IMG/VR virus record: IMGVR_UViG_3300048592_000777
Location: 1 to 37,476 of that record
Length of the DNA: 37,476 bases
Source: a virus
Direction: 5' to 3' (one strand)
Below are positions 1 through 37,476 of this stretch, in pieces. A model generated the notes under the pieces. It worked only from the letters and a program-made list of their open reading frames with translations, had not been told where the DNA came from and did no database searches. A program made the position numbers and the translations under genes. The stretch's first letter is position 1. Each line of letters opens with the position of its first letter.

Positions 1-127
1 GCCGAACGCCGCGCGGGCGAGATGCTGCGCGTGACGGCGGAGCGGGGGGAGCGTCGTGGCGCTGGCAACCCGCAATTGTCGCAGGCTTCGACGATTGGAC
101 TCGACGACCTCAACATCACCCGCGACC
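1..127. repeat. terminal direct repeat, left copy
   Basis: The first 127 bases are identical to the last 127 bases of the window (37350-37476). The repeat lies inside one open reading frame that continues without a break when the two ends are joined. A length of exactly 127 bases is the usual overlap left by an assembler with k-mer size 127, so I read it as a circularisation overlap and not as a biological terminal repeat. Confidence 0.97.
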
Positions 128-3127: not shown

Positions 3128-3318
3128 TGACGATCGACGAAGCCCAGAAGCAGATCGCCGAGATCCTGCGTCAAGTTGAGGTGGGGAGCGGTGCGCTGGT
3201 AAAAGGTGTGCGCATCCGCGACGTGGACATTACCCGGCTTGCCGACCCGCGGCGGCAGATTTCGCGCGCCGTGGAGATCGAGCTCGAACACATTCCGGGA
3301 ACTCATTGGGAAACGTAG
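3124..3318 (+). CDS. small early protein before attP, unknown (64 aa)
   Basis: The ATG at 3124 (with a second ATG at 3127) overlaps the previous stop. The product has an N-terminal helix with Glu, Gln and Ile repeats (DEAQKQIAEILRQVE), then a short beta region around VKGVRIRDVDI and a charged end. No family is recognised. It is the last gene before the 200-bp noncoding stretch in front of the integrase. Co-transcription with the HTH gene suggests a helper role, but this is weak. Confidence 0.68.
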   Translation: MMTIDEAQKQIAEILRQVEVGSGALVKGVRIRDVDITRLADPRRQISRAVEIELEHIPGTHWET

Positions 3319-3520
3319 CCCCGCCGCTTCCCCGCCACCCTCCCACCGCGCCCCACGACATCATGCGCTGTTCGATTCCTGGCGGAGGGACCCCCGTAGG
3401 GGAACACGGCGACACACCATGACACTTTCCCTCTGCGCCGAGTCACACAACGTCACACGGCGACGCGCGATCCCCGCCATAATCCCGCCACTTTTCCCGC
3501 CACTTGGGGAGGCTGGAAGA
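3319..3520. other. candidate attP and integrase control region
   Basis: This 202-bp noncoding stretch lies directly upstream of the integrase. It holds short direct repeats of the kind recombinases use as arm sites: GTCACAC at 3442-3448 and 3452-3458 (10-bp period), and TCCCGCCACTT at 3483-3493 and 3495-3505 (12-bp period). A CCCC-GTA-GGGG hairpin lies at 3392-3402. A CATAAT at 3478-3483 could be a -10 for the integrase, with only a weak -35. The stretch TTCGATTCC at 3371-3379 resembles a tRNA T-loop, as expected for a tRNA-targeting phage, but no full T-stem can be built. The core is therefore not fixed. Confidence 0.4.
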
Positions 3521-4498
3521 ATGGGGAACGTGCGGAAGCGCGGGCGGCGCTGGCGCGCGGAGGCCGAGGCGCTGGGGGAGCGGAAGTCGCGAAGCTTTGC
3601 GACGAAGGCGGAGGCGGTGGCGTGGATGGTCGACGCGGAGCGGCGCATCCGGGCCGGCGAGGGCTTCGCGATCCACGGCCGGACGGTGCGCGACCTGCTG
3701 GAACGCTACGCCGACGAGGAGAGCCCCAAGAAAGCGAAAGGCGCGTGGGAGCGGACGCGGCTCGCGTTCCTGTGCCGCGCCGAGGACCCGCTGGGGTCGA
3801 CGCCGCTTGCGCGCCTGACGCCGGAGGTGATGCAGGCGTGGCAGGACCGCCAGCTCGGGCGGGTGTCGGGGGAGACGGTGCTGCGGGATCGGGCGCTGCT
3901 CTCGGCGGCGTTCCGGCACGCGGCGCGGGTGTGGCGGTGGCTGCCCGGCTCGCCGCTGACCGCCGTGCGAGGTCCGCGCGGCAACCCGCCGCGGGCGCGG
4001 GTGTGCACGCCGGAGGAACTGGCGCGGCTGTGGCTGGTGGCCGGCACGGACCTCGAGCGCGGTCAGGCGCGGGCGGTGGCGGCGTTCGAGCTCGCGATCG
4101 AGACGGGGATGCGCGGGGCGGAGATGAGCGCGCTGCGGCGGGAGGACGTGCACCTGGCGCGGTCTTTCGTCCACCTGCCGCGAACGAAGAACGGCGACGC
4201 GCGCGACGTGGCGCTGTCGCCACGCGCCAAGGCGCTGCTGGCCGAGGTGATGGCGCTGGGGCTGGACCCGGTGTTCGGGCTCAGTGCCGCGAGCAAGGAT
4301 GCGCTGTTCCGGCGGGTGCGGGCGCGGGCCGGGATCGAGGGGCTCACGTTCCACGATAGCCGGCACACGGCCTGCACGCGGATCGCGCGGAAGCTGCACG
4401 TTCTGGAGCTGGCCCGCCAGCTCGGGACGCGGGACCTGAAGACGTTGCTCATTTACTACAATGAGAGCGCCACCGAACTAGCCAAGAGGCTTGAATGA
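3521..4498 (+). CDS. int: tyrosine recombinase (phage integrase)
   Basis: This 325-residue integrase has an Arg-rich N-terminal arm-type DNA-binding region, a core-binding helix domain (about 50-150) and a catalytic domain (about 160-325). The visible catalytic residues are Arg198 (ETGMRGAE), Lys223 in RTKNGD, His278 and Arg281 in HDSRHT, and Tyr312 in LIYYN. The position usually held by the second His (LGH) is Thr303 (LGT), a notable substitution. The ATG at 3521 follows a GGGGAGG ribosome site; upstream in-frame ATGs lie in the noncoding region. It integrates the phage into the host chromosome at attB. The stop overlaps the start of the HNH gene. Confidence 0.95.
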   Translation: MGNVRKRGRRWRAEAEALGERKSRSFATKAEAVAWMVDAERRIRAGEGFAIHGRTVRDLLERYADEESPKKAKGAWERTRLAFLCRAEDPLGSTPLARLTPEVMQAWQDRQLGRVSGETVLRDRALLSAAFRHAARVWRWLPGSPLTAVRGPRGNPPRARVCTPEELARLWLVAGTDLERGQARAVAAFELAIETGMRGAEMSALRREDVHLARSFVHLPRTKNGDARDVALSPRAKALLAEVMALGLDPVFGLSAASKDALFRRVRARAGIEGLTFHDSRHTACTRIARKLHVLELARQLGTRDLKTLLIYYNESATELAKRLE

Positions 4499-18795: not shown

Positions 18796-20673
18796 TCAGG
18801 TGATCGACGAGGCGTAGGAGAAGCCGCCCGGATACCGGACGCCCACGTCGCAGGTGTACCAGCCCCGCACCGCGGTGAGGCCGCGGGTGAAGTCGCTGAA
18901 CGGGTTGGTCATGAGCTCCAGCACGCCCCACTCGGCCAGGATCACGCCGGGCCAGTAGCCGAAGAGCATCGTCGCCGCGGACATCTGCGCCGAGCTCATG
19001 GCGGGCATGTCGAACAGCGAGCCCATCAGCATCGACCCGCGCCACAGCCGCTCGGTGCCCGTGCTGGGCAGCTCCGGGCGCGCCATCAGCAGCGCGGCCA
19101 CGGCCGGCGTGGTCACGTAGCCGCAGCCGGGCAGCAGCGCGTTGGCCGCTGCGACGTCGGCCTGGAACTCCAGGATGCCGGCGGCGGCGAGCGACGTGCC
19201 GGTGACCGAGCCGATCCCGGCCGTGTTGACGATGCCCGTCGGCTGCCCCGAGGCGCCAGACCCGCGCAGGACACCGACGTCCACCGCCAGCGCGATGTCG
19301 CGCGCGATGGAGCTCAGCACCAGCGACTCGGCGTCCGGAGTGGACTGCTGCATGAGCTGGTGCGAGAGCTCGGTCAGCGCCGCAACGTTCTTGGGCGCGA
19401 GCGAGAGCTGGCCGAGCGTCGGCTGGCTCTCGGTGATCTGGGTGGTCTCGTCGGCCAGCCAGTACGCCGAGTTGCCGGCGGTCATCTTCGGGATGGTGAC
19501 GTTCCCGACCAGGCCGGAGAGCCGGGTGATGCCCATGCGCAGCGCCACCGAGGTGTTGCGCAGCAGGTCGATGAACGAGCCCGGCTGGTTGTCGGTGGAC
19601 ACCAGGTAGTTCGAGCCGGACACGCCCGCGACGGTCATGTCGCGACGGCCGGGAAGCTCGGCCATCAGCACGTCGAGCGGCACGAAGAACGAGGTCTCGG
19701 CGCGCGGCAGGCGGTGCAGCCGGTTGCTGATCTCCTTGTTGCACTCGAGCTCGAACCCGGCCTTGTCCCAGCTCTTGTTGGAGGCCGCCCGCAGCGCGCG
19801 CATGAGGCTGTAGCGCTTGGTGTCGGCCGCGCTGAGGTCCAGCCGCGTGACCGCGTGGCGGCTGTTCTTGCCGCGCTCGGCAAGGACCTCGACGATGCCG
19901 TCGGCGACCTCGTTCATGTCGGCGCCGGTCTCGATCCACTGGCGCTCGATGCGCTCGTCGATCTTGTTGGCACGGCAGAGGTTGACGATCGCGGCCTTGC
20001 GCTTCTCCTCGATCTGGGTGGCCGAAAACTTCTCGGGCTTCGGCGACTCGGTCGCCTTCGGTTCCGCGACTGCGCCCGCGGCGGCGTTTTGCACATTGGA
20101 CATGGTGTCCTCCGTAGGAGCGGCAACTGCCGCGGGTTTCACTTCAGCGGCCCGGACCATCCGGACCTCGAATCCATCGCTGTCGGCGGCCTGCCGGCCG
20201 AGCCCGACCGTCGGGTCCGCCGGCACCGTCACGATCGAGACCTCATAGGGCTCCCAGTCCGTGGCGGTGAAGACGTTGCGCTTCTTGTCCTCCTCGACCA
20301 CGTGCAGCCGGTAGCCCAGCGAGACGTTGCGCAGGCCGCCGGAGAGCATCGCGCCGACCTCCTGCGCCCGCGCGGTGTCGAAGAGGTGCGCGTCGACCAC
20401 CAAGCGCCCGCCCTCCAGCCGCGCGCCGTCCACGATGCCGATCGGGTCGTCCCAGTTGTGGTTGAAGAGCAGCGGCAGCGCGCCGCGGTCCACGCGGTCC
20501 ATGCGCACCGCGCCCTTGGCGTGCGAGAGCACCTCCTCACCGAACCAGCGCTCCACCGGCTGCTCGCTCGAGGCCGGGAAGGTGAGCCGGGTCACGCCCT
20601 TCTCGGCCCGCAGCTCGATCGACGCGGCCGGCAGGTCGCGCGCGAGCGAGGGCACCTTGATCGTTTCGGTCAT
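18796..20673 (-). CDS. prohead protease - major capsid protein fusion
   Basis: A 625-residue protein in two parts. Residues 1-160 are an HK97-type prohead protease (S78/U35): His72 in LLFNHNWDDPIG, Ser118 in LRNVSLGYR, and Glu144 in EPYEVSIVTVPAD form the likely triad. Residues about 265-625 are an HK97-fold major capsid protein (RAASNKSWDKAGFE, FFVPLDVLMAEL, VTIPKMTAGNSAYWLADET, SGQPTGIVNTAG, GWYTCDVGVRYPGG). Between them lies a charged segment (PEKFSATQIEEKRKAA) that may act as scaffold. A GGAGG lies before the ATG at 20673. Such fusions occur in other phages; cleavage during maturation is expected. A second start lies inside at 20103. Confidence 0.93.
   Translation of the reverse strand: MTETIKVPSLARDLPAASIELRAEKGVTRLTFPASSEQPVERWFGEEVLSHAKGAVRMDRVDRGALPLLFNHNWDDPIGIVDGARLEGGRLVVDAHLFDTARAQEVGAMLSGGLRNVSLGYRLHVVEEDKKRNVFTATDWEPYEVSIVTVPADPTVGLGRQAADSDGFEVRMVRAAEVKPAAVAAPTEDTMSNVQNAAAGAVAEPKATESPKPEKFSATQIEEKRKAAIVNLCRANKIDERIERQWIETGADMNEVADGIVEVLAERGKNSRHAVTRLDLSAADTKRYSLMRALRAASNKSWDKAGFELECNKEISNRLHRLPRAETSFFVPLDVLMAELPGRRDMTVAGVSGSNYLVSTDNQPGSFIDLLRNTSVALRMGITRLSGLVGNVTIPKMTAGNSAYWLADETTQITESQPTLGQLSLAPKNVAALTELSHQLMQQSTPDAESLVLSSIARDIALAVDVGVLRGSGASGQPTGIVNTAGIGSVTGTSLAAAGILEFQADVAAANALLPGCGYVTTPAVAALLMARPELPSTGTERLWRGSMLMGSLFDMPAMSSAQMSAATMLFGYWPGVILAEWGVLELMTNPFSDFTRGLTAVRGWYTCDVGVRYPGGFSYASSIT
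20101..20114 (-). promoter_or_regulatory. internal ribosome binding site inside the protease-capsid gene
   Basis: On the leftward strand CGGAGGACACCATG gives GGAGG 5 bases before an in-frame ATG ending at 20103 (Met191). Starting there would produce a 435-residue protein with scaffold and capsid parts but no protease. The match to a Shine-Dalgarno is as good as that of the gene's main start. This would let the phage make many capsid subunits per protease, but it is inference from sequence alone. Confidence 0.6.
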
Positions 20674-22256
20674 CGCTTGCCTCCAAGAGAGAAGACCCGC
20701 CGGGGCGGGTCTTCGGATGCGTCGCTTTCCTCGGCCTCGGTCTCGGCCTCGGCCTCGTCCGGCTCGGGCGGTTCCGGCGCGGCGTTCTCCGCCGCGGCCA
20801 CGGCCGGATCGGTGTCGAACTGCAGCCCGGCCTCGGCCATGAGGTCGAGCTCGCGGCGGCGCTGCTTGAGCACGTCCTCGATGTCGGCGCCGGCGCCCGT
20901 GGTGGCGATGACGTCGCTCACGGTGATGAACCCCGCGCGCACCGCCTCCTTGTAGGCCTCGACCTCCTTGGTGGGGTCGATCCAGCTCCAGCCGCGCGGC
21001 TTGAAGCGCGCCGCCTCGAACTTGGCCGGGTCCATGGCGTACTCCTCCACGGGGATCGCCGGCACGGCGCGCGCGAGCACGGCCTGCCGCAGCCACTCCC
21101 GGTGGACGATGTCGCGGAAGTTGCGCACCCACCACATCTGCAGCGTGCGCCACAGATCCCGGTCGTCCAGGAGCGCGAGCCGGCTGGAGGAGTAGTTGCT
21201 TTGCGAGTAGTCGCGCGAGAGGCTTTCGTAGCTGACGCCGCAGCCGGCGGCCACCTCGCGCAGCATGGCGCGCATGAAGGGATCGAGCGCGGTGTTGGGC
21301 CGGTTGGGCGCGACGAAGTTGAGCTTCTCGCCGGGCTTGAGGTGCTGCACCAGGCCGGGCGAGATCTCGACCTGCGCGGTGCCGTCGGTCTGCAGCTCGG
21401 CGTTGGGCGCGAGCTCCTCGTCGCTCTCGATGGTGGCCATGTAGGAGGCGGCGCCGCGCGCGGCGACGATCTCCGCCTCGGTATAGCCGTCCATGTCGTT
21501 CAGTTTGCGCACGGCGGCGTGCAGCCACGGCTCGCCGCGGGTCTGCGGCCAGCGCTCCACGATGCGCAGGTGGATGATCTGCTCGGCGGGCACGCGCTCC
21601 AGGCGGTCGCTGCGCTCCAGGCCGACCCGCAGCTCGCCGGGGTGACGCTCGCGGATCCAGTAGGCCACCGGCCGGTAGAAGCGATCCACCTCGACGCCCA
21701 TGCGGATGGTGTTGCCCGGATCCGACGCGCCGACCTGGTACTCGTCGGCCAGCCGCTCCGGCTCGATGAGCTCCAGCGCGAAGGGCACGCGCGAGTCCCC
21801 GAAGGCGCGGTAGTGCTTGCGCAGGAAGATCTCGCCGGCCTCGAACACCTGCCCCATGGCGGCCCGCTCGAGGTCCGCGAAGTGCATGACGCCGCCGGTG
21901 TGGCACGAGGAGCCGCGGCACCAGGCGGCCCACGCATCCTCGATGGCGGCGTTGACGTTCTCCCGCAGCGTGTCGCGCGAGCTCATGACCTGCGCCTGCA
22001 GGCCGACGCCGGCGCCGATGACGTTGTTGACCACGATGACCTTGGCGCGCTTGGCGTAGGCGGCATCGCGCACCAGCGCACGGGAGCGCGCCCGGAGCGT
22101 GGTGAGGCTGGACACGAGCTCGCTGTCGGAGCTGCTGTTCGCGGTGTTCCAGCCGGCGGTCAGCCGCGACTGGCGCGCCGCGGCGTACATCCGCACCGCG
22201 GTCTTGGGCCCCGGCGCGATCCAGCGCGCGATGCTGTGGCGCAGTTTTTCAAGCAC
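20670..22256 (-). CDS. portal protein (lambda B-like)
   Basis: A 528-residue portal. Family features: an early helix-rich region (WNTANSSSDSELVSSLTTLR, SRALVRDAAYAKRAKVIVVN), a centre with YWIRERHPGELRVG and EQIIHLRIVERWPQTRGEPW (the portal_2 signature), and a stem-like helix near LLDDRDLWRTLQMWWVRNF. The last 40 residues are very acidic (EPPEPDEAEAETEAEESDAS). It forms the 12-fold ring through which DNA enters and leaves the head. ATG at 22256 overlaps the 22249 gene; its stop overlaps the protease-capsid start. Order after terminase matches lambda A-W-B-C. Confidence 0.94.
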   Translation of the reverse strand: MLEKLRHSIARWIAPGPKTAVRMYAAARQSRLTAGWNTANSSSDSELVSSLTTLRARSRALVRDAAYAKRAKVIVVNNVIGAGVGLQAQVMSSRDTLRENVNAAIEDAWAAWCRGSSCHTGGVMHFADLERAAMGQVFEAGEIFLRKHYRAFGDSRVPFALELIEPERLADEYQVGASDPGNTIRMGVEVDRFYRPVAYWIRERHPGELRVGLERSDRLERVPAEQIIHLRIVERWPQTRGEPWLHAAVRKLNDMDGYTEAEIVAARGAASYMATIESDEELAPNAELQTDGTAQVEISPGLVQHLKPGEKLNFVAPNRPNTALDPFMRAMLREVAAGCGVSYESLSRDYSQSNYSSSRLALLDDRDLWRTLQMWWVRNFRDIVHREWLRQAVLARAVPAIPVEEYAMDPAKFEAARFKPRGWSWIDPTKEVEAYKEAVRAGFITVSDVIATTGAGADIEDVLKQRRRELDLMAEAGLQFDTDPAVAAAENAAPEPPEPDEAEAETEAEESDASEDPPRRVFSLGGKR

Positions 22257-22812
22257 GGCCGAACCTCACCTGGATGTTGCGGGAGTTGCCCAGACCGCGC
22301 GAGGCGCGCTCGGCGGCGTCCTCGGAGGCGACTATCAGCTTGTACTTGTCGCGCAGCACCAGCAGGTCCGGGATCGAGGTGCGCCGGAGCGACCGCCCCG
22401 CGATGGAGTACTCCTCCTGATCCTTGGTGGCGCGGCTTTCCAGCACCGCCTCGATCGCCTCCAGCACCTTGCGCGCGTGCGTGCGCCCGTCGTGCCCCGC
22501 CGCCGTCGCCGCCGGATCGGGCAGCACCTCGAGCCGCCCCTGGCCCAGGCTCACGCGCTGGCCGGCCTTCTCCACCCACCGGGCCCAGGAGTAGAAGCCG
22601 GACTTCCACGCCGCGGTGTTGGTCGAGGACTCCTGCACGCGATAGCGCGTGGTCTCGTAGGTTAGCGCCGTCAGCGTGATCGGCGTCTGCGCCGGCGCGG
22701 TGAACTCCGGCACCAGGCGGTACTTGAGCGTCCACCCGTCGCTCGCCGGGTAGTCCGGCGCGTCGTCGGTGAAGTCGAGCGTGTCGCCTGCGATGATCTG
22801 GTCGAGCATCAT
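22249..22812 (-). CDS. gpW-like connector or head protein (187 aa)
   Basis: A 187-residue protein in two parts. The first 90 residues look beta-rich (TLKYRLVPEFTAPAQTPITL, VSLGQGRLEVLPDP), and the last 70 carry KVLEAIEAVLESRATKDQEE and YSIAGRSLRRTSIPDLLVLR, close to the helical gpW-type joining motif that precedes portal in lambda-like phages. Proteins of this layout are common next to portal genes. Starts with ATG-ATG at 22812, overlapping the previous stop. Likely helps stabilise the filled head or joins portal and tail. I am confident of the location, less so of the family. Confidence 0.75.
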   Translation of the reverse strand: MMLDQIIAGDTLDFTDDAPDYPASDGWTLKYRLVPEFTAPAQTPITLTALTYETTRYRVQESSTNTAAWKSGFYSWARWVEKAGQRVSLGQGRLEVLPDPAATAAGHDGRTHARKVLEAIEAVLESRATKDQEEYSIAGRSLRRTSIPDLLVLRDKYKLIVASEDAAERASRGLGNSRNIQVRFGRA

Positions 22813-24331: not shown

Positions 24332-26326
24332 CTATCGGTGGATGACCTGGTGCCGCTTGCGGTGCAGCGGCATGAAGTCGGACGGTGGCGGCGGGGTGCC
24401 GATGGTGAAGCTCGCGCTGGCGAGGTAGGCGTCGAGCACGGTGCCGGCGTTGGTGACCCGGAGGTCATAGGTGCCGCTCGCCGCGGCGCTGGTGCTGATC
24501 GCCCATTCCACCTCGGTATAGAGGTCCGCCGCGCCGAAGGTGATGGCATCGCTGCCGTTCTCGTCGTCCCACGTGCGGCCAGCGGTGAAATCGCTCGTGG
24601 TCTTGCCGCTCGGCGCGGCGAGCTGCGCGGTGGTCGCCTCGCCGCCGGCGGTGATGTTGGCCGACGGCGCGACATACACCTCGTTGTCCACGGGCGCGGT
24701 GTACGCACGCAGCCGCACCACCACGCCACCGGCCGAGGCTGACGCGCTCGCGGTATACGCCCACGTCGGCGCGGCGTTGACGTTGCTGGTCCCCGTGATG
24801 GCCGCGAAGGTGTCCACCGTGTGCCGGTGGTCGTTGCCTGTCGTGACCGCCGTGGCCGCCTTGTTGGTGCGCGTACCGAACGTCACACCGCTCGCCGTCA
24901 GGCTCTGCGACGATTGCGTTGCACTGTCCACGCGCTGACCGGTTGCCACCAGCACGGCATCGCCCGTGTTCCAGTTCATCGACGCAAAGGTCATCGAGAC
25001 GCCGGTGCCGCTAGTTGAATCGTTGGCGCCCTCGCCCACCACGGCCCAGGTCCCCGAGCCGGACTTCGTGAACCGGCTGATCGTGCCCCGGCAGGTGTTG
25101 CCGTTGGTGATCGAGACCGTGAGCGTGCCCGACTCGGTACCGTCCGCCTCCTTGCCGAAGACGGTGACGCGGCGAGGACCCGTATCGATGCCGAAGCTGC
25201 CGTCGGTGCTGGCGCCGGTCGCGAGCAGCGTCCACCCGCTCGGCGTGCTCGGCGTCTCGCTGTTCGTCGCCCCGCTGGTCACCACGCAGAGCAGGTACTG
25301 CCCGGCCGTGATGCCGGCGGGATAGCTTGGCGCGACCGTGGTGCTGCCGTTCGCGCCCGTGCCGATGGCACCGAACGTGATCGTGTCGTACACCTCCGGC
25401 ACCGTCGCGCCCACCGGCACCGCGGCCCAGCTTCCACCGCCCTGCTTCCACTCCAGCCGCGGCGTGATGTTGGCCGGGCCGTTGGCCTGGTCGATCAGGA
25501 ACCGTGCGCGAAACACCTCCTCCGCGTCGACGTAGGTGTTGGTGTCCTGCACCTCGCGCCACGTCGCGGTGGTCTCGCTGCCGTCGTCGTTGCGGTAGCG
25601 GTAGCCCTCCTGGTCGGTTTCGGTGGCGGGGCCGCCGCCCGGCTCGGCCACCTCGAAGATCACGCCGGCCCACGCGCCTACATCGCTGCCGAGGTCGGTA
25701 GATTGCGCATCGGTGGCAGTCGAGCCCGTGCGGCTGTACAGGTTGACGTTGACGTAGGCGTCGGTCATCAACGTGTTGACCAGCGTCCAACCCGACGGGG
25801 TGGACGGCCCGCCACCGGTGTTGTCTCCGACCGCGAACACCGCAAAGCACTTGGACGCGGACGCCGGCGCGCTGCCGAGCGTCAGCGTGCCGCTGGCCGA
25901 TCCGCTCGACGGGTTGACGTCCGCTCCATTGGTGACCGCCGCCTGCGGGTAGGGAGAGCCGGTGTCGAACTCGTCGTTGGTCTGCGACCACACGACCCAG
26001 GCCGCATACTCGGCGCCGCCCGACGTGGCCGGGTCGAAGGTGAGCGAAATGCTCGACGGCGCGCCGCCGATGTCTGCATGCCACGTCTTGACCTGGAGCG
26101 CGTAATTGGCGTCGCCCTCGAAGCTGTAGAAGGACGACTCCGCGTGGGGCGTCCACGTCAGGCCGCCACCCGGCGCGGCCCACGTCGGCGTGCTCGCGTG
26201 GTTGGCCCGCATGATCAGGCAGGCCGCGTAGAGCCGGCTGTTGGCGGCCGGCGTGAAGCTCGCCGTGTTGTGGCTGTTGAGGTCGCCGGTGCCGCTTGAC
26301 GCAGCTGCGTGAACTGCGACCGTCAT
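24332..26326 (-). CDS. large multidomain beta-rich surface protein (664 aa)
   Basis: A 664-residue protein with no catalytic motif. It appears to hold two related beta domains: residues about 15-240 (NTASFTPAANSRLYAACLIM, GWTLVNTLMTDAYVNVNLYS) and about 325-560 (GAIGTGANGSTTVAPSYPAG, GWTLLATGASTDGSFGID, WNTGDAVLVATGQRVD). Both contain a TPSGWTL phrase and a VVxLRA/VIFEVA-type end. A third region (575-664) has AAPSGKTTSDFTAGRTWDDE and a Ser-rich tail. Proteins like this occur as phage head fibers or adhesins that bind glycans or host surfaces. Start ATG at 26326 overlaps the glycosidase stop. The long frame upstream is a shadow of that gene. Confidence 0.82.
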   Translation of the reverse strand: MTVAVHAAASSGTGDLNSHNTASFTPAANSRLYAACLIMRANHASTPTWAAPGGGLTWTPHAESSFYSFEGDANYALQVKTWHADIGGAPSSISLTFDPATSGGAEYAAWVVWSQTNDEFDTGSPYPQAAVTNGADVNPSSGSASGTLTLGSAPASASKCFAVFAVGDNTGGGPSTPSGWTLVNTLMTDAYVNVNLYSRTGSTATDAQSTDLGSDVGAWAGVIFEVAEPGGGPATETDQEGYRYRNDDGSETTATWREVQDTNTYVDAEEVFRARFLIDQANGPANITPRLEWKQGGGSWAAVPVGATVPEVYDTITFGAIGTGANGSTTVAPSYPAGITAGQYLLCVVTSGATNSETPSTPSGWTLLATGASTDGSFGIDTGPRRVTVFGKEADGTESGTLTVSITNGNTCRGTISRFTKSGSGTWAVVGEGANDSTSGTGVSMTFASMNWNTGDAVLVATGQRVDSATQSSQSLTASGVTFGTRTNKAATAVTTGNDHRHTVDTFAAITGTSNVNAAPTWAYTASASASAGGVVVRLRAYTAPVDNEVYVAPSANITAGGEATTAQLAAPSGKTTSDFTAGRTWDDENGSDAITFGAADLYTEVEWAISTSAAASGTYDLRVTNAGTVLDAYLASASFTIGTPPPPSDFMPLHRKRHQVIHR

Positions 26327-27603
26327 GCCGCATCCACCACGATGATGCGCTCGCCGCCGGTGGCCACGTCGATGGTGCCGGTGTTGGCGGTACTCGCGGT
26401 ATGCGTGCTGTAGGTCCCGGCCGTGGGATCGTAGAGCCGGATGCGGATGTTGCCGGGTGTGAACTCCGACTTGTCTATGGTGACGGTCGTGCTCGATCCC
26501 ACGTAGATCAGCGCGAAGGTCCCGTCGCTCGCGAGCGCGGGGCAGATGCGCGTCGCGCCGCTGCCGAGGCTGCTCGTGACCAGTGTGGCGTCGGGCTTGG
26601 GAACGAGCTTCCACCACTGGAAGGCGGTGAACAGCGCGGCTGCGTAGCTCTGTTCGACCGCACCCGTCGAGCCGAGCGCGGTCTCCCACCCGGTGGCGAA
26701 CTTCCAGACGGGGTTGTTGCCGAAGAACGCCCCGCAGGCCCCGGACAACATCGACTGATAGGTGAGCTGGCGATAGGTCGCCGCGCTGCCGCTTTCGTTC
26801 TCGTAGTTGCCCTCCATCAACACGCCGGGGATCGGCGGATCGAGCGCGTAGGCCCGAGCGGTCATTTCCCACACCCACTCGACGTTGCCCTGATAGCAGT
26901 AAATCCAGTTGACGAGGCGCGAGAAGAAAGTCGTGCTGATCACGTCGGTCAGCAGCTTGTCCGGTGCCGGATGGCCGCTATGCAGCGCAGTTGTTCTGAC
27001 GCTCTCGATGCCGAGGTATATCTGCTTCTGCTTTGTGCGCGACGTGCTGTCGCCGTCGTAATCGCCCAGCCAGAACCACAGAATGTTGTCCTGATCGAAA
27101 CGGTTGCCGAGATATTGCCCGTAGGCGTACAGGTCCGCGTCGCTCTCGGCGTTCATTTCCGTGTACCACCCCTGCCCGCCGCCGCCGAAGCCGAACAGGC
27201 ACGGGTTCATGACCACCAGCAGGTCGCGCGCCTTGGCCTGGTCCACCAGGTAGGTGATGTGGTCCCAGTACGCGGTGACCGGCGACGCGAAGTCGGTCAT
27301 CGGATTGAACGGGTCGTCGCCGTTGGCGTTGCGATACGCCGGCGTCTGATCCGTGTACTCGCGGCTGATCGCCTCCACCATGATCGCGGTGAATCCCTTC
27401 GCCGCACGGTCATCGAGGTACGTGCCAATCTCGCTCGCGGTCAGGTTGCTGCCCGAGGACCAGCCAGCGCATCCGAGAAAGAAGAACGGCGCGCCCTGCG
27501 CGTCGATGAGATAGCGCCCGCTCGAATGGATCGAGAGCGGCCACATGCTCTCAGGCGCCGGCACAAGCGGCGCCTGCACGCGCATCAGGCGGCGCGCAGG
27601 CAT
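26323..27603 (-). CDS. DUF4038-type glycoside hydrolase-like protein
   Basis: A 426-residue protein with the family pattern of DUF4038/GH140-like enzymes. A strand with YLIDAQGAPFFFLGCAGWSS is followed by EIGTYLDDRAAKGFTAIMVE, RDLLVVMNPCLFGFG, then ILWFWLGDYDGD (residues 174-185; Asp181 a candidate acid/base) and GVLMEGNYENESG (Glu264 a candidate nucleophile). The last 90 residues form a beta-sandwich (putative collagen-binding type). No signal peptide is visible, so it probably acts in the virion. It may cut side chains of a capsule or other glycan. Some codons are less GC-rich than its surroundings. Rare content for a head-proximal phage cassette. Confidence 0.85.
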   Translation of the reverse strand: MPARRLMRVQAPLVPAPESMWPLSIHSSGRYLIDAQGAPFFFLGCAGWSSGSNLTASEIGTYLDDRAAKGFTAIMVEAISREYTDQTPAYRNANGDDPFNPMTDFASPVTAYWDHITYLVDQAKARDLLVVMNPCLFGFGGGGQGWYTEMNAESDADLYAYGQYLGNRFDQDNILWFWLGDYDGDSTSRTKQKQIYLGIESVRTTALHSGHPAPDKLLTDVISTTFFSRLVNWIYCYQGNVEWVWEMTARAYALDPPIPGVLMEGNYENESGSAATYRQLTYQSMLSGACGAFFGNNPVWKFATGWETALGSTGAVEQSYAAALFTAFQWWKLVPKPDATLVTSSLGSGATRICPALASDGTFALIYVGSSTTVTIDKSEFTPGNIRIRLYDPTAGTYSTHTASTANTGTIDVATGGERIIVVDAA

Positions 27604-27638
27604 GGCCCCTCAGCGCGGCTCGTAGAAGTCACGGCACA

Positions 27639-28040
27639 CTACGGCGCGAGGCGCACCGCTGGCTGCGCGACAGGCGCCACGGCGTAGGAGTACGCGAAAG
27701 GGCGGCTCGACGCGCTCCCGGGCGTCGTGTACGTGCCGCTGTCGGTGCCGTTGGCCACGCCGCCGGCGCGCGTGCAGGTGAGCACCAGCGTGTACGTGCC
27801 GAAGGTGGTGAGCGAGGCGAGCGGGCACGTCGGCCGCACGCCGCCGCTCACCGCGGGCAGCGTGCAGGCAATGTTGGGCACGCTCACCGGGCCGGCGCTC
27901 ACCGCGACCGCGCAGGCGTCCGGCGCTCCGGCGGCCGGGTACGGATCGGCGACGAGCTGCTGCGCGAGCGCAGGCAGCGCGAGCGCCAGGGCGAGCGCGC
28001 TGAGGATCATCAGCAGCGCCATGCGAGTCGCGGCGCGCAT
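27639..28040 (-). CDS. exported protein with signal peptide and four cysteines (133 aa)
   Basis: The product starts with a typical Sec signal (RAATRMALLMILSALALALA, then LPALAQQ) with cleavage near ALA-Q. The mature part is about 108 residues, with four cysteines (in DACAV, NIACT, PTCPL and LTCTR) that could form two disulfides, as expected in the periplasm. It resembles a small Ig-like or Fn3-like domain (TYTLVLTCTRAGG, TDSGTYTTPG). It lies one base downstream of the 28042 gene. A signal peptide inside a virion cassette is unusual; it may work in the host envelope. Confidence 0.8.
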   Translation of the reverse strand: MRAATRMALLMILSALALALALPALAQQLVADPYPAAGAPDACAVAVSAGPVSVPNIACTLPAVSGGVRPTCPLASLTTFGTYTLVLTCTRAGGVANGTDSGTYTTPGSASSRPFAYSYAVAPVAQPAVRLAP

Positions 28041-28041
28041 C

Positions 28042-28827
28042 TCAGGCGTTCCCGTCGGTGAGGGCGAAGCTGGTGACCGACACCGCCACGCCACTGGTGA
28101 TCGACGTGGTGTTGAGGTTGAGGTCGCTGCCGGAGGTGCCGACGTTGCCGTCCATCACGAACGTCGCCGTCGAGTCGACGCAGCGGAACCAGGTCGCGGT
28201 GCCCGTCGCGTTGGCCGAGGAGTCTTGCGTGATGCTGTTCCAGGTGGCCGAGCCCGAGGACGCCGCCGGCGCGCACGGATCGGAGAACGTCAGCTCGGCG
28301 AGCAGCGTCGTCGCCGCGCCGCCGGTCGCCGGCCGCGAGCCGTCGTAGATCCGCAGCAGCCCGGCGCCGGCACCGCCGTCGACCGCGTCGCGCACGGCGT
28401 TGAGCCGGTTGTTGCGCACCGTGGTCGAGAACGCGAGCGCGAACAGCCAGCCGAACAGGCGCTCGAAGAGCTCTCGCACCATGTCCAGCGGGCCGAGCGT
28501 GAGCGCGTAGCCGGCCTGCGGGTTTGCCGGCGGAGTGGGCTTCTTGAGTAGCGACCCATCCGGTTCCGGGCGCTTGTGCGCCTTCATCTGCTCGATCACC
28601 CAGGTCTGCGCGGCGGTGTCGGCCTCGTCACGCGTGGCCGCGCGGCCGGCGTGCTCGGCAAGCACCTGGCCGTCGCCCTCGTAGGCGTAGAGCCGGGCGC
28701 GCCAGTCGTACCCGTCGCCGGCGGCGTCGGTCTCCTCGACGAAGATCTCCCAGTACGCGGCGTACTCCGCACGCGGGTAGTCGGCAAGGTCGATCAGCGC
28801 CACGTGGCGCGGTTGCTTGGTGCTCAT
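28042..28827 (-). CDS. virion-type protein with a beta-rich C-terminus (261 aa)
   Basis: The first gene after terminase in this strand; AGGAGG lies 5 bases upstream of its ATG at 28827. The N-terminal part is charged (EYAAYWEIFVEETDAAGDGY), with a helical section around RDEADTAAQTWVIEQMKAH and a hydrophobic stretch (FERLFGWLFALAF, about 122-134). The C-terminal 120 residues start LNAVRDAVDGGAGAGLLRIY and continue with PATGGAATTLLAELTFSD, a domain seen in many phage structural proteins near terminase or tail genes. It could be a head decoration or fiber base. Function is not established. Confidence 0.78.
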   Translation of the reverse strand: MSTKQPRHVALIDLADYPRAEYAAYWEIFVEETDAAGDGYDWRARLYAYEGDGQVLAEHAGRAATRDEADTAAQTWVIEQMKAHKRPEPDGSLLKKPTPPANPQAGYALTLGPLDMVRELFERLFGWLFALAFSTTVRNNRLNAVRDAVDGGAGAGLLRIYDGSRPATGGAATTLLAELTFSDPCAPAASSGSATWNSITQDSSANATGTATWFRCVDSTATFVMDGNVGTSGSDLNLNTTSITSGVAVSVTSFALTDGNA

Positions 28828-28916: not shown

Positions 28917-30899
28917 TCAGCGCCAGCCGTTGACGAACCCGCCGCGGCGCGGCATCCAGCGGCGCGGCTGCTCCGCGGCCTCGGGCTGCGGCGCCACGGC
29001 TTCCGGCTCGGCGCCCGCGGGGCGATCGAACAGCGTGGCCTGCGTGATCGCGCTCTCCAGCGCCTGCCACTGCGCCTCGCTCTTGATGTCGGTGCGCTGC
29101 GAGCGCGCGGCGTGCAGCGCGAGGATCGTGCAGTCCAGCGCTTCATTCCGCCGGCCGGCCTTGCGCTGCCACACTTTCTTGCCGCGCGGCCCGCCGCGGG
29201 CCGGCGCCTTGACCTCGGCGGTGAGCTGCTCGAAGAAGTCGCGCCGGATGCCCTGGTACCAGTGCATGCGCCCGGGGCCGCTCTCGCGAAGCTGCAGGCG
29301 CCCGCCGCCATCGGCGCCGAGCACCAGGTCCTTCGCCCGCGAGACGCCGACGATGTACGGCTTCAGCCCGTACTTGGCGGCCTTCTGGGTGGCGGTGATG
29401 TCGATCGACCGCTCTGCCGGCTTGCGGAAGATCTCCGCGGTGTCCGTGCTCGAGCCCTTGGTGGCCATCACGCCGCGCCGCCGGCGCGCGCGCGCGTAGT
29501 GATACACCGCGTCCGCGGTGTTGCCGTCGCCGGAGTCGATCGACATCGCGCTCACGCCCAGCTCGCCGCCGTTCACGTGCGCGAAGGTCCGGTCGAGCGT
29601 CAGCGCGTCGAGCTCGGCCCAGACCGGGTCGGCCTTGTCGATCGGCCGGCCGTAGAGCTCGCCCCAGTACAGGATCCAGCACTCCTCGCCGCGGCCCCAG
29701 GCCGCGATCACCACCGCCAGGCGGTCGTGCTGCACGTCCACGCCCACCGTCACCAGCAGACCGCCGGCGGGCACGGTGAACTCCTCGTAGCCCTCGGCGC
29801 GCGCGGCGAGCGCGTCCTCGTCCGGCACGTCGTTCTTGTACGCCCAGGGCTTGCCCAGCGTGCTGTTCCAGAAGTTGATGAGCCCGCCCACGTCACCGGC
29901 GCGCGCATCCGCCTCGGCCTGCAGCAGCTTCTCGACCAGCTTCGGCAGCGTGCTCTGCGGGAAGCCCGACACGAGCTCGTTGATGTAGAAGCCCATCACC
30001 CCGCGGAACTCCGCGGTGGCCACCCAGTGGCCGCGGCGCGCGTTGCGGATGCGCTCCGCATCCGTCCACAGCACCCCGCAGCCCGGGCAGCGGTAGCGCG
30101 CCGTCTCCGGCAGCGCGGTGCCGTACACCGGGTGCGATCGCGCCTGGTCGTGCAGCCAGGTCACGTTCTCCCACTCGAGCGGCGCCGCTTCGCCGCACTC
30201 GTGGCAGGGCACGTGCCACTGCTCCTTGTCGGAGGCCTCCATCGCGAGCGCGATCGCCGAGAGGCCCTCGATCGTCGGCGTGCCGCCCACCAGCACCTTC
30301 TTGTCCTGGTAGGTCTTGCCGCGCTCCTCGAGCAGCGCGATCGAATCGCCCTGCCCCTTCAGGTTCACGTTGCAGTCGTCGGGCTCCTCGACGATCAGGC
30401 GCTTGGCGTTCGTGCTCTTCACGCCGCCGGTGCTGTTCGAGCCCACCAGCTTGATGAAGCCGCCGGGGAACGTCTTCGTGTCCACCCGGTTCGACTTGTC
30501 GCGGCTCTTCAGCACGATCTTCGACTGCAGCGATCGCGTCGCCTCGACCATCGGCTCGAACTTCTCGCTGTTGAAGTCCTTGCCCGTCTTGTCCCGCGGG
30601 AACATCACGATCATCGGCGCCGGGTCGACGTCGATGGTGTACCCGAGGTAGTTGTTGATCACGCCGTCGGTCCACCCGATCTGGGCCGACTTCTGCATCA
30701 ACACCTTCTGGACCTTCCGGTCCGTGAGCGCCTCTAGCGGCTTACGCAACCAGGGCGTGAGCGTCAGCGAGAACTTACCGGGCTTCGCCGACAGGCTGGA
30801 CAGGTAGCGCCGCGACTCCGCCCACTCCGCCACCGTCATCCGCACCGGAGGTGCGAAGCGGCGCATCACCCTCCGGGTCAGGCTCTGCAGTGGGGTCAT
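28917..30899 (-). CDS. terL: terminase large subunit (GpA family)
   Basis: A 660-residue GpA-type terminase. Residues 69-78 (QKSAQIGWTD) form the lambda-like Walker A; VEEPDD at 170-175 is the Walker B and coupling motif. Two zinc-type pairs, CHEC (232-235) and CPGC (271-274), are typical for GpA. Asp388 in VGVDVQ begins the nuclease domain, with further acidic residues near MSIDSGDG. It translocates and cuts DNA at cos. The start is uncertain: ATG at 30899 or 30866, the latter with GGAGGG just before it; both lie inside TerS. Length is close to lambda A (641 aa). Confidence 0.95.
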   Translation of the reverse strand: MTPLQSLTRRVMRRFAPPVRMTVAEWAESRRYLSSLSAKPGKFSLTLTPWLRKPLEALTDRKVQKVLMQKSAQIGWTDGVINNYLGYTIDVDPAPMIVMFPRDKTGKDFNSEKFEPMVEATRSLQSKIVLKSRDKSNRVDTKTFPGGFIKLVGSNSTGGVKSTNAKRLIVEEPDDCNVNLKGQGDSIALLEERGKTYQDKKVLVGGTPTIEGLSAIALAMEASDKEQWHVPCHECGEAAPLEWENVTWLHDQARSHPVYGTALPETARYRCPGCGVLWTDAERIRNARRGHWVATAEFRGVMGFYINELVSGFPQSTLPKLVEKLLQAEADARAGDVGGLINFWNSTLGKPWAYKNDVPDEDALAARAEGYEEFTVPAGGLLVTVGVDVQHDRLAVVIAAWGRGEECWILYWGELYGRPIDKADPVWAELDALTLDRTFAHVNGGELGVSAMSIDSGDGNTADAVYHYARARRRRGVMATKGSSTDTAEIFRKPAERSIDITATQKAAKYGLKPYIVGVSRAKDLVLGADGGGRLQLRESGPGRMHWYQGIRRDFFEQLTAEVKAPARGGPRGKKVWQRKAGRRNEALDCTILALHAARSQRTDIKSEAQWQALESAITQATLFDRPAGAEPEAVAPQPEAAEQPRRWMPRRGGFVNGWR

Positions 30900-37188: not shown

Positions 37189-37476
37189 TGCAACTCGTCC
37201 GCTACGAAACGGCGCGGCAGGCGTTGGCAGAAGCACACCGCGTGGACGAGGTGAAGGACATCCGCGACAAGGCGCAGGCGCTGGCGGCCTACGCGCGGCA
37301 GGCGAAGGACACCGACCTGATCGCGTGGGCGACGGAGATCAAGGTGCGTGCCGAACGCCGCGCGGGCGAGATGCTGCGCGTGACGGCGGAGCGGGGGGAG
37401 CGTCGTGGCGCTGGCAACCCGCAATTGTCGCAGGCTTCGACGATTGGACTCGACGACCTCAACATCACCCGCGACC
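37188..37476 (+). CDS. 5' part of the early gene that spans the contig ends
   Basis: The GTG at 37188 shares its G with the previous TAG. The frame is VQLVRYETARQALAEAHRVD, then EVKDIRDKAQALAAYARQAK, and it continues into base 1 of the window after joining (37350 equals base 1). The MQLVxYE / KDIRDKA start is a recognised form of an abundant early phage protein of unknown function. Full length is 221 residues. See the entry at 1-504 for the rest. Confidence 0.92.
   Translation, partial: MQLVRYETARQALAEAHRVDEVKDIRDKAQALAAYARQAKDTDLIAWATEIKVRAERRAGEMLRVTAERGERRGAGNPQLSQASTIGLDDLNITRD
37350..37476. repeat. terminal direct repeat, right copy
   Basis: Identical to bases 1-127. Removing one copy gives the closed circle of 37,349 bp. 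Confidence 0.97.

Follow-up and report, generated by a model that had tools for sequence, protein, structure and literature searches.

The window, that is, the whole stretch of 37476 nucleotides analysed, corresponds to the IMG/VR virus record IMGVR_UViG_3300048592_000777. It carries a glycosidase gene among the virion genes of a phage, and its features are as follows:

1..127, + strand: terminal direct repeat of 127 bp, first copy, identical to 37350–37476
3206..4498, + strand: tyrosine integrase (PF00589)
18796..20650, − strand: apparently fused prohead protease–major capsid protein (PF04586 and PF05065 in one open reading frame; start approximate)
20670..22256, − strand: portal protein, lambda family
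22249..22812, − strand: conserved gene adjoining the portal gene, at the border of a variable terminase–portal island
24332..26326, − strand: Ser/Thr/Gly-rich protein of 664 amino acids, the gene after the glycosidase gene, whose stop codon its ATG overlaps
26323..27603, − strand: GH140-like glycosidase gene (PF13204 and PF12904), 426 amino acids, ATG to TGA
27606..27611, − strand: Shine–Dalgarno-like GAGGGG before the glycosidase gene (from the sequence)
27639..28094, − strand: small protein with a signal-peptide-like N-terminus (hydropathy 2.8), directly upstream of the glycosidase gene
28042..28827, − strand: virion structural protein (phrog_3758); L012 and L015 also encode a homologue upstream of their glycosidase
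28917..30899, − strand: terminase large subunit, GpA type (Pfam and PHROGs)
37350..37476, + strand: terminal direct repeat of 127 bp, second copy

The record closes on itself through the 127-bp repeat and also includes genes for a tape measure protein, a distal tail protein and tail fibre J. On the basis of this repeat, the integrase, the lambda-type portal, the GpA terminase, the protease–capsid protein and the tail genes, the source is a temperate siphophage, and its genome is probably complete. The glycosidase gene was located within a 6.1-kb stretch between the large terminase and portal genes, in agreement with the virion region named in the sequence-only reading. The corresponding interval of phages with related portals was empty (L138 and L146), short (L143) or filled with 8 kb of other genes (L145), and the terminase–portal stretch is thus a variable island. 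The island of L145 (1685–9420), a phage whose portal protein is 61% identical to that of the window, encodes proteins of 966 and 748 amino acids with no Pfam match. As regards the host, portal homologues from Lysobacteraceae were only about 35% identical at most, and the glycosidase matched 2 of 297 genomes of this family.

The stop codon of the glycosidase gene and the ATG of the next gene share a 4-bp ATGA overlap (26323–26326). Homologues of the encoded 664-residue neighbour also adjoin the glycosidase in L012, L015, L022 and L034; the model of this neighbour (pLDDT 36) was too low in confidence for use. No docking motif common to the glycosidase and its neighbouring proteins was found. The small protein with a strongly signal-peptide-like N-terminus (27639–28094) is encoded amid virion genes, and L015 likewise has a small, secreted-looking open reading frame in that interval.

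Within the glycosidase gene the following features were delimited:

27541..27603, − strand: Arg/Pro-rich N-terminal tail of 21 residues, modelled with low confidence (pLDDT 49–61)
26608..27522, − strand: catalytic TIM-barrel domain, residues 28–332 (Pfam PF13204 and the eight barrel strands of the model)
27469..27471, − strand: Cys45 codon, a position occupied by Asp or Glu in nearly all relatives
27061..27063, − strand: predicted catalytic Asp181 codon, at the end of strand 4, equivalent to Asp187 of BT1012
26812..26814, − strand: predicted catalytic Glu264 codon, at the end of strand 7, equivalent to Glu284 of BT1012
26374..26595, − strand: C-terminal beta-sandwich, residues 337–410 (Pfam PF12904 and model strands)

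The Pfam family PF13204 (Apiosidase/DUF4038) was matched with an E value of 6e-51 (174.4 bits against a curated cut-off of 26.5), and phmmer retrieved the PDB entries of BT1012 (3kzs, 2e-19), 4qfu (1e-18) and 8t9w (1e-14); these E values are far beyond chance. PF12904 scored 22.7 bits, marginally above its cut-off of 22 (E 9e-5); the C-terminal beta-sandwich is also backed by strands in the model and by a match to 8t9w and 5msy over the full length. No family matching the glycosidase was found in PHROGs, and no NCBIfam model matched it or the Bacteroides GH140 controls. A signal peptide was not found: peak N-terminal hydropathy was 1.23, compared with at least 1.85 for the homologues from exopolysaccharide (EPS) operons, taken at their best start codon. 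Other viral copies carry similar short basic N-terminal tails, and that of the window glycosidase is a candidate docking peptide.

An AlphaFold2 model built from an alignment of 27 viral sequences had a mean pLDDT of 91.8 and a pTM of 0.89. It shows an eight-strand barrel in which Asp181 directly follows strand 4 (174–179) and Glu264 lies at the end of strand 7 (260–264), the arrangement of clan GH-A. GH140 structures headed the Foldseek search (E 2.9e-29), and VIA-align gave Z 46.7 for 8t9w (rmsd 2.0 over 387 residues) and Z 42.9 for BT1012, the next fold being well below, at 28.5. The best match in BFVD was much weaker (8.5e-12, TM 0.52), which means that this database lists no close viral structure. 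The GH140 fold occupies residues 22–426 and leaves about 21 residues for docking. Asp181 was invariant in the 27 viral sequences and in all five groups compared; the position of Glu264 is nearly universal across the groups, with Glu in 25 of the 27 viral sequences and Asp in the other two. For BT_1012, a catalytic role of Asp187 and Glu284 and sugar binding by Trp63, Trp149 and Tyr287 were proposed in 2014 (PMC4032388). Asp181 and Trp48 were equated with Asp187 and Trp63 of BT1012 by counting through the phmmer alignment, and Glu264 and Tyr267 with Glu284 and Tyr287 through the conserved E-x-x-Y motif. The comparison with characterised GH140 structures that the sequence-only reading had suggested thus bears out its family assignment, its pair of acids and its C-terminal beta-sandwich, and the hydropathy values agree with the missing signal peptide.

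To find viral relatives, viral contigs were scanned with the single glycosidase protein, with no match; a scan of IMG/VR with an alignment gave 34 loci. In the tree, 14 sequences, the window glycosidase among them, form a clade (support 100/99). This clade includes L046, a phage-derived contig binned as an Arenimonas MAG, in which the glycosidase is followed by the small terminase, large terminase and portal genes; its glycosidase is identical to that of the viral contig L019 over the stretch compared. Relatives with the glycosidase in virion modules include L012, L015, L022, L035, L037 and L046. The portal or terminase types nearby include those of lambda, HK97/PF04860, Mu, P22 and SU10, and the gene has therefore moved between unrelated phages, yet kept to head or structural modules. 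Deeper viral relatives are fused proteins of 670–2050 amino acids, in which the glycosidase domain is joined to fn3 and GHL15 (L021), to fn3 and a polysaccharide-lyase-like region (L024), to a beta-helix and PL14 (L029) or to LamG (L034 and L038), an architecture that would be expected of virion depolymerases.

Two matches from INPHARED, MT835628.1 (L002) and MT835684.1 (L003), both faecal records named "Bacteriophage sp.", were rejected, as they look like bacterial contigs. One of them carries SusC/SusD, GH2, a GH78-type rhamnosidase and GH130, the other a two-component regulator and GH95, and their proteins cluster in the tree with the GH140s of pectin loci. Given this gene content and grouping, no INPHARED phage is known to have such an enzyme.

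The nearest cellular homologues are DUF4038 proteins about 30–36% identical over most of their length, among them those of Shinella, Sinorhizobium, Agrobacterium, Roseateles sp. XES5 and others (33–36%). Their annotated loci are EPS operons, with genes for a polysaccharide pyruvyl transferase, a flippase, a glycosyltransferase and export. A pyruvyl transferase HMM matched ten loci, namely nine of the eleven EPS-clade loci (L004–L009, L011, L047, L053, L056 and L057) and a Rhodococcus locus (L010), and no other locus searched; since it was trained on the pyruvyl transferases of loci that it then matched, what carries weight is the lack of matches at other loci. The two remaining EPS-clade loci (L009 and L011) gave no pyruvyl transferase in the flank covered, which was only about 3 kb. 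A secreted DUF4038/GH140-like protein recurs in pyruvyl-transferase EPS operons of Rhizobiaceae, Brucellaceae, Dechloromonas and Acetobacteraceae. No study of its role appears to exist, and the literature searched gave no description of its function. In the Hyphomonadaceae genome of L054, a homologue lies within an open frame of 1493 amino acids (G027:C19:135678-136889), and another copy is present on contig C21.

Bona fide GH140s, on the other hand, adjoin SusC/SusD, GH28, GH78 and GH172 genes. A branch with 100/97 support divides these pectin-locus proteins from the phage and EPS proteins, and the window glycosidase falls outside the pectin clade. The grouping of phage and EPS proteins with each other is weak (74/68); an origin of the phage enzyme from the EPS clade, which was considered, is unproven on this support, and the same value counts against reading the enzyme as an EPS depolymerase.

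The active-site positions are distributed along the same division. Position 235 is Tyr in all 27 phage and all 11 EPS proteins, and Gln in 22 of 24 pectin-type proteins. Position 136 is mostly Tyr in phages and EPS proteins, Trp in the pectin type and Leu in the window; position 182 is mostly Tyr in phages, as in the window, and Arg in 16/24 pectin-type proteins. Ser49 of the window stands against Glu in 14/24, and position 262, mostly hydrophobic (Leu in the window), against Asp in 18/24. The pectin-clade cleft signature Q75, W136, Q235 and D262 is thus absent, the window having M75, L136, Y235 and L262. Judged from these alignments, the predicted catalytic machinery is common to phage, EPS and pectin enzymes, and the putative sugar-contacting shell differs. 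The residues common to the phage and EPS clades (Y235 and mostly Y136), unlike those of the pectin GH140s, speak for an EPS depolymerase.

The window glycosidase retains Asp181, Glu264, W48, H211, Y235 and Y267, and departs at five of 52 conserved positions (D45C, E80S, Y136L, G179L and T209S), all of them close to the C-terminal ends of barrel strands in the model. Elsewhere in the viral clade, the cleft shell is largely kept. Since conserved cleft residues have changed in the window copy, its substrate may differ; the departures could reflect changed specificity or, less likely, lost activity, and in this respect they count against a depolymerase.

The protein, a clan GH-A-like glycosidase, is probably a depolymerase of host EPS or capsule carried on the virion. 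The enzyme, lacking a signal peptide, would be made in the late virion operon and anchored on the particle, with its short basic N-terminal tail or the ATGA-coupled neighbour as a possible means of attachment; it may then open the host EPS during approach or release, with cleavage through Asp181 on strand 4 and Glu264 on strand 7. An enzyme that is made late and not exported would be of use outside the cell only as part of the virion or once the cell has lysed. The main rival is therefore a soluble cytoplasmic depolymerase, freed at lysis, that releases the progeny from EPS and has no part in the particle. A stand-alone two-domain protein with no signal peptide fits it, and the mere 21 or so extra residues available for docking count against a virion depolymerase. 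Nevertheless, the gene lies inside head and structural genes, and in the deeper relatives the domain is one part of a long fusion protein that also has fn3, LamG or beta-helix modules; this position and these fusions, together with the spread over phage types, favour a virion location, and release at lysis alone is considered unlikely. A non-hydrolytic glycan-binding protein (adhesin) derived from an enzyme could be read from the cleft, where the near-universal Asp45 is lost together with E80, Y136 and G179, but the catalytic pair and the four other residues kept in the window, as well as the shell kept in the rest of the viral clade, make it improbable.

An auxiliary metabolic gene aiding the lysogen in feeding on polysaccharide would be in accordance with the integrase of a temperate phage and with the location in a variable island; moreover, soil viral glycosidases, e.g., a chitosanase, have been described as such genes (PMC9485262). 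Against it stand the late structural operon with its ATGA overlap and the missing signal peptide, which leaves no obvious export from the lysogen, and we regard this explanation as very improbable. The least probable is an apiosidase or pectin side-chain enzyme acting on plant glycans. It agrees with the PF13204 family, the fold and the catalytic pair, which are as in BT1012; however, the protein lies outside the pectin-locus clade across the 100/97 branch, differs in the active site at positions 235, 49, 182 and 262, and has its cousins in EPS operons and not in pectin loci. As the closest bacterial cousins are in slime-making gene sets, the cutting of host slime is most likely, and not plant digestion; a bacterial EPS like those produced by the operons of these cousins is a more likely substrate than plant pectin. 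Of the proposal that the protein is a depolymerase for a capsule or plant-like EPS, the depolymerase idea is thus retained and the plant-glycan link is not, for the reasons of kinship, branching and active site given above; the hint at a plant-associated host is likewise not supported, the kin pointing to bacterial EPS.

Beyond a virion-borne depolymerase in this one phage, it may be proposed, tentatively and with less than even confidence, that GH140-like enzymes make up a mobile class of phage EPS depolymerases that has been overlooked; they would share a branch with hydrolases of (pyruvylated) EPS operons and attack the same kind of polymer, and the operon hydrolase would thus predict the phage weapon. 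Phage depolymerases are known as a class, and a GH140-like phage depolymerase would be a new variant: PHROGs, BFVD, INPHARED and the literature searched yielded no phage GH140, and that literature no link of GH140 with phage function. If the depolymerase reading is true, a fold known from the digestion of plant pectin would be a phage tool against bacterial slime, and viral genes otherwise annotated as "auxiliary" for plant polymers would be host-range determinants. It would also suggest what the DUF4038 protein, so far unstudied, does in the EPS operons of rhizobia and Brucella, and would open a source of EPS-removing enzymes.

Compared with known systems, the GH140 apiosidases (BT1012, 5msy/3kzs; 8t9w; BVU_2644, 4qfu) have the same two-domain architecture and barrel Asp/Glu pair, with structural matches of Z 42–47 over about 387 residues, and W63 and Y287 of BT1012 correspond to W48 and Y267 of the window. 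They are only about 23% identical to the window protein, which has no signal peptide, and they belong to a pectin utilisation locus, in contrast to a phage virion module. Where they have Gln, Trp and Arg in the cleft, most of the viral clade has Tyr (positions 235, 136 and 182, respectively), with Leu at 136 in the window. The EPS-operon DUF4038 proteins (Shinella, Sinorhizobium, Agrobacterium, Brucella, Dechloromonas and Rhodovastum) are the closest cellular sequences and have Y235, the W146 loop and the GNNP motif in common with the window; unlike it, they show a signal-peptide-like N-terminus and adjoin pyruvyl transferase, flippase and glycosyltransferase genes. Typical phage depolymerases are trimeric and multidomain, and usually beta-helical, whereas the window protein is a TIM barrel with a beta-sandwich and has no matching PHROGs family or close BFVD structure. 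With virion-associated tailspike depolymerases, of which KP34gp57 is an example (PMC10653864), it shares a gene in the virion module, a glycan-cleaving fold, the absence of a signal peptide and modular relatives.
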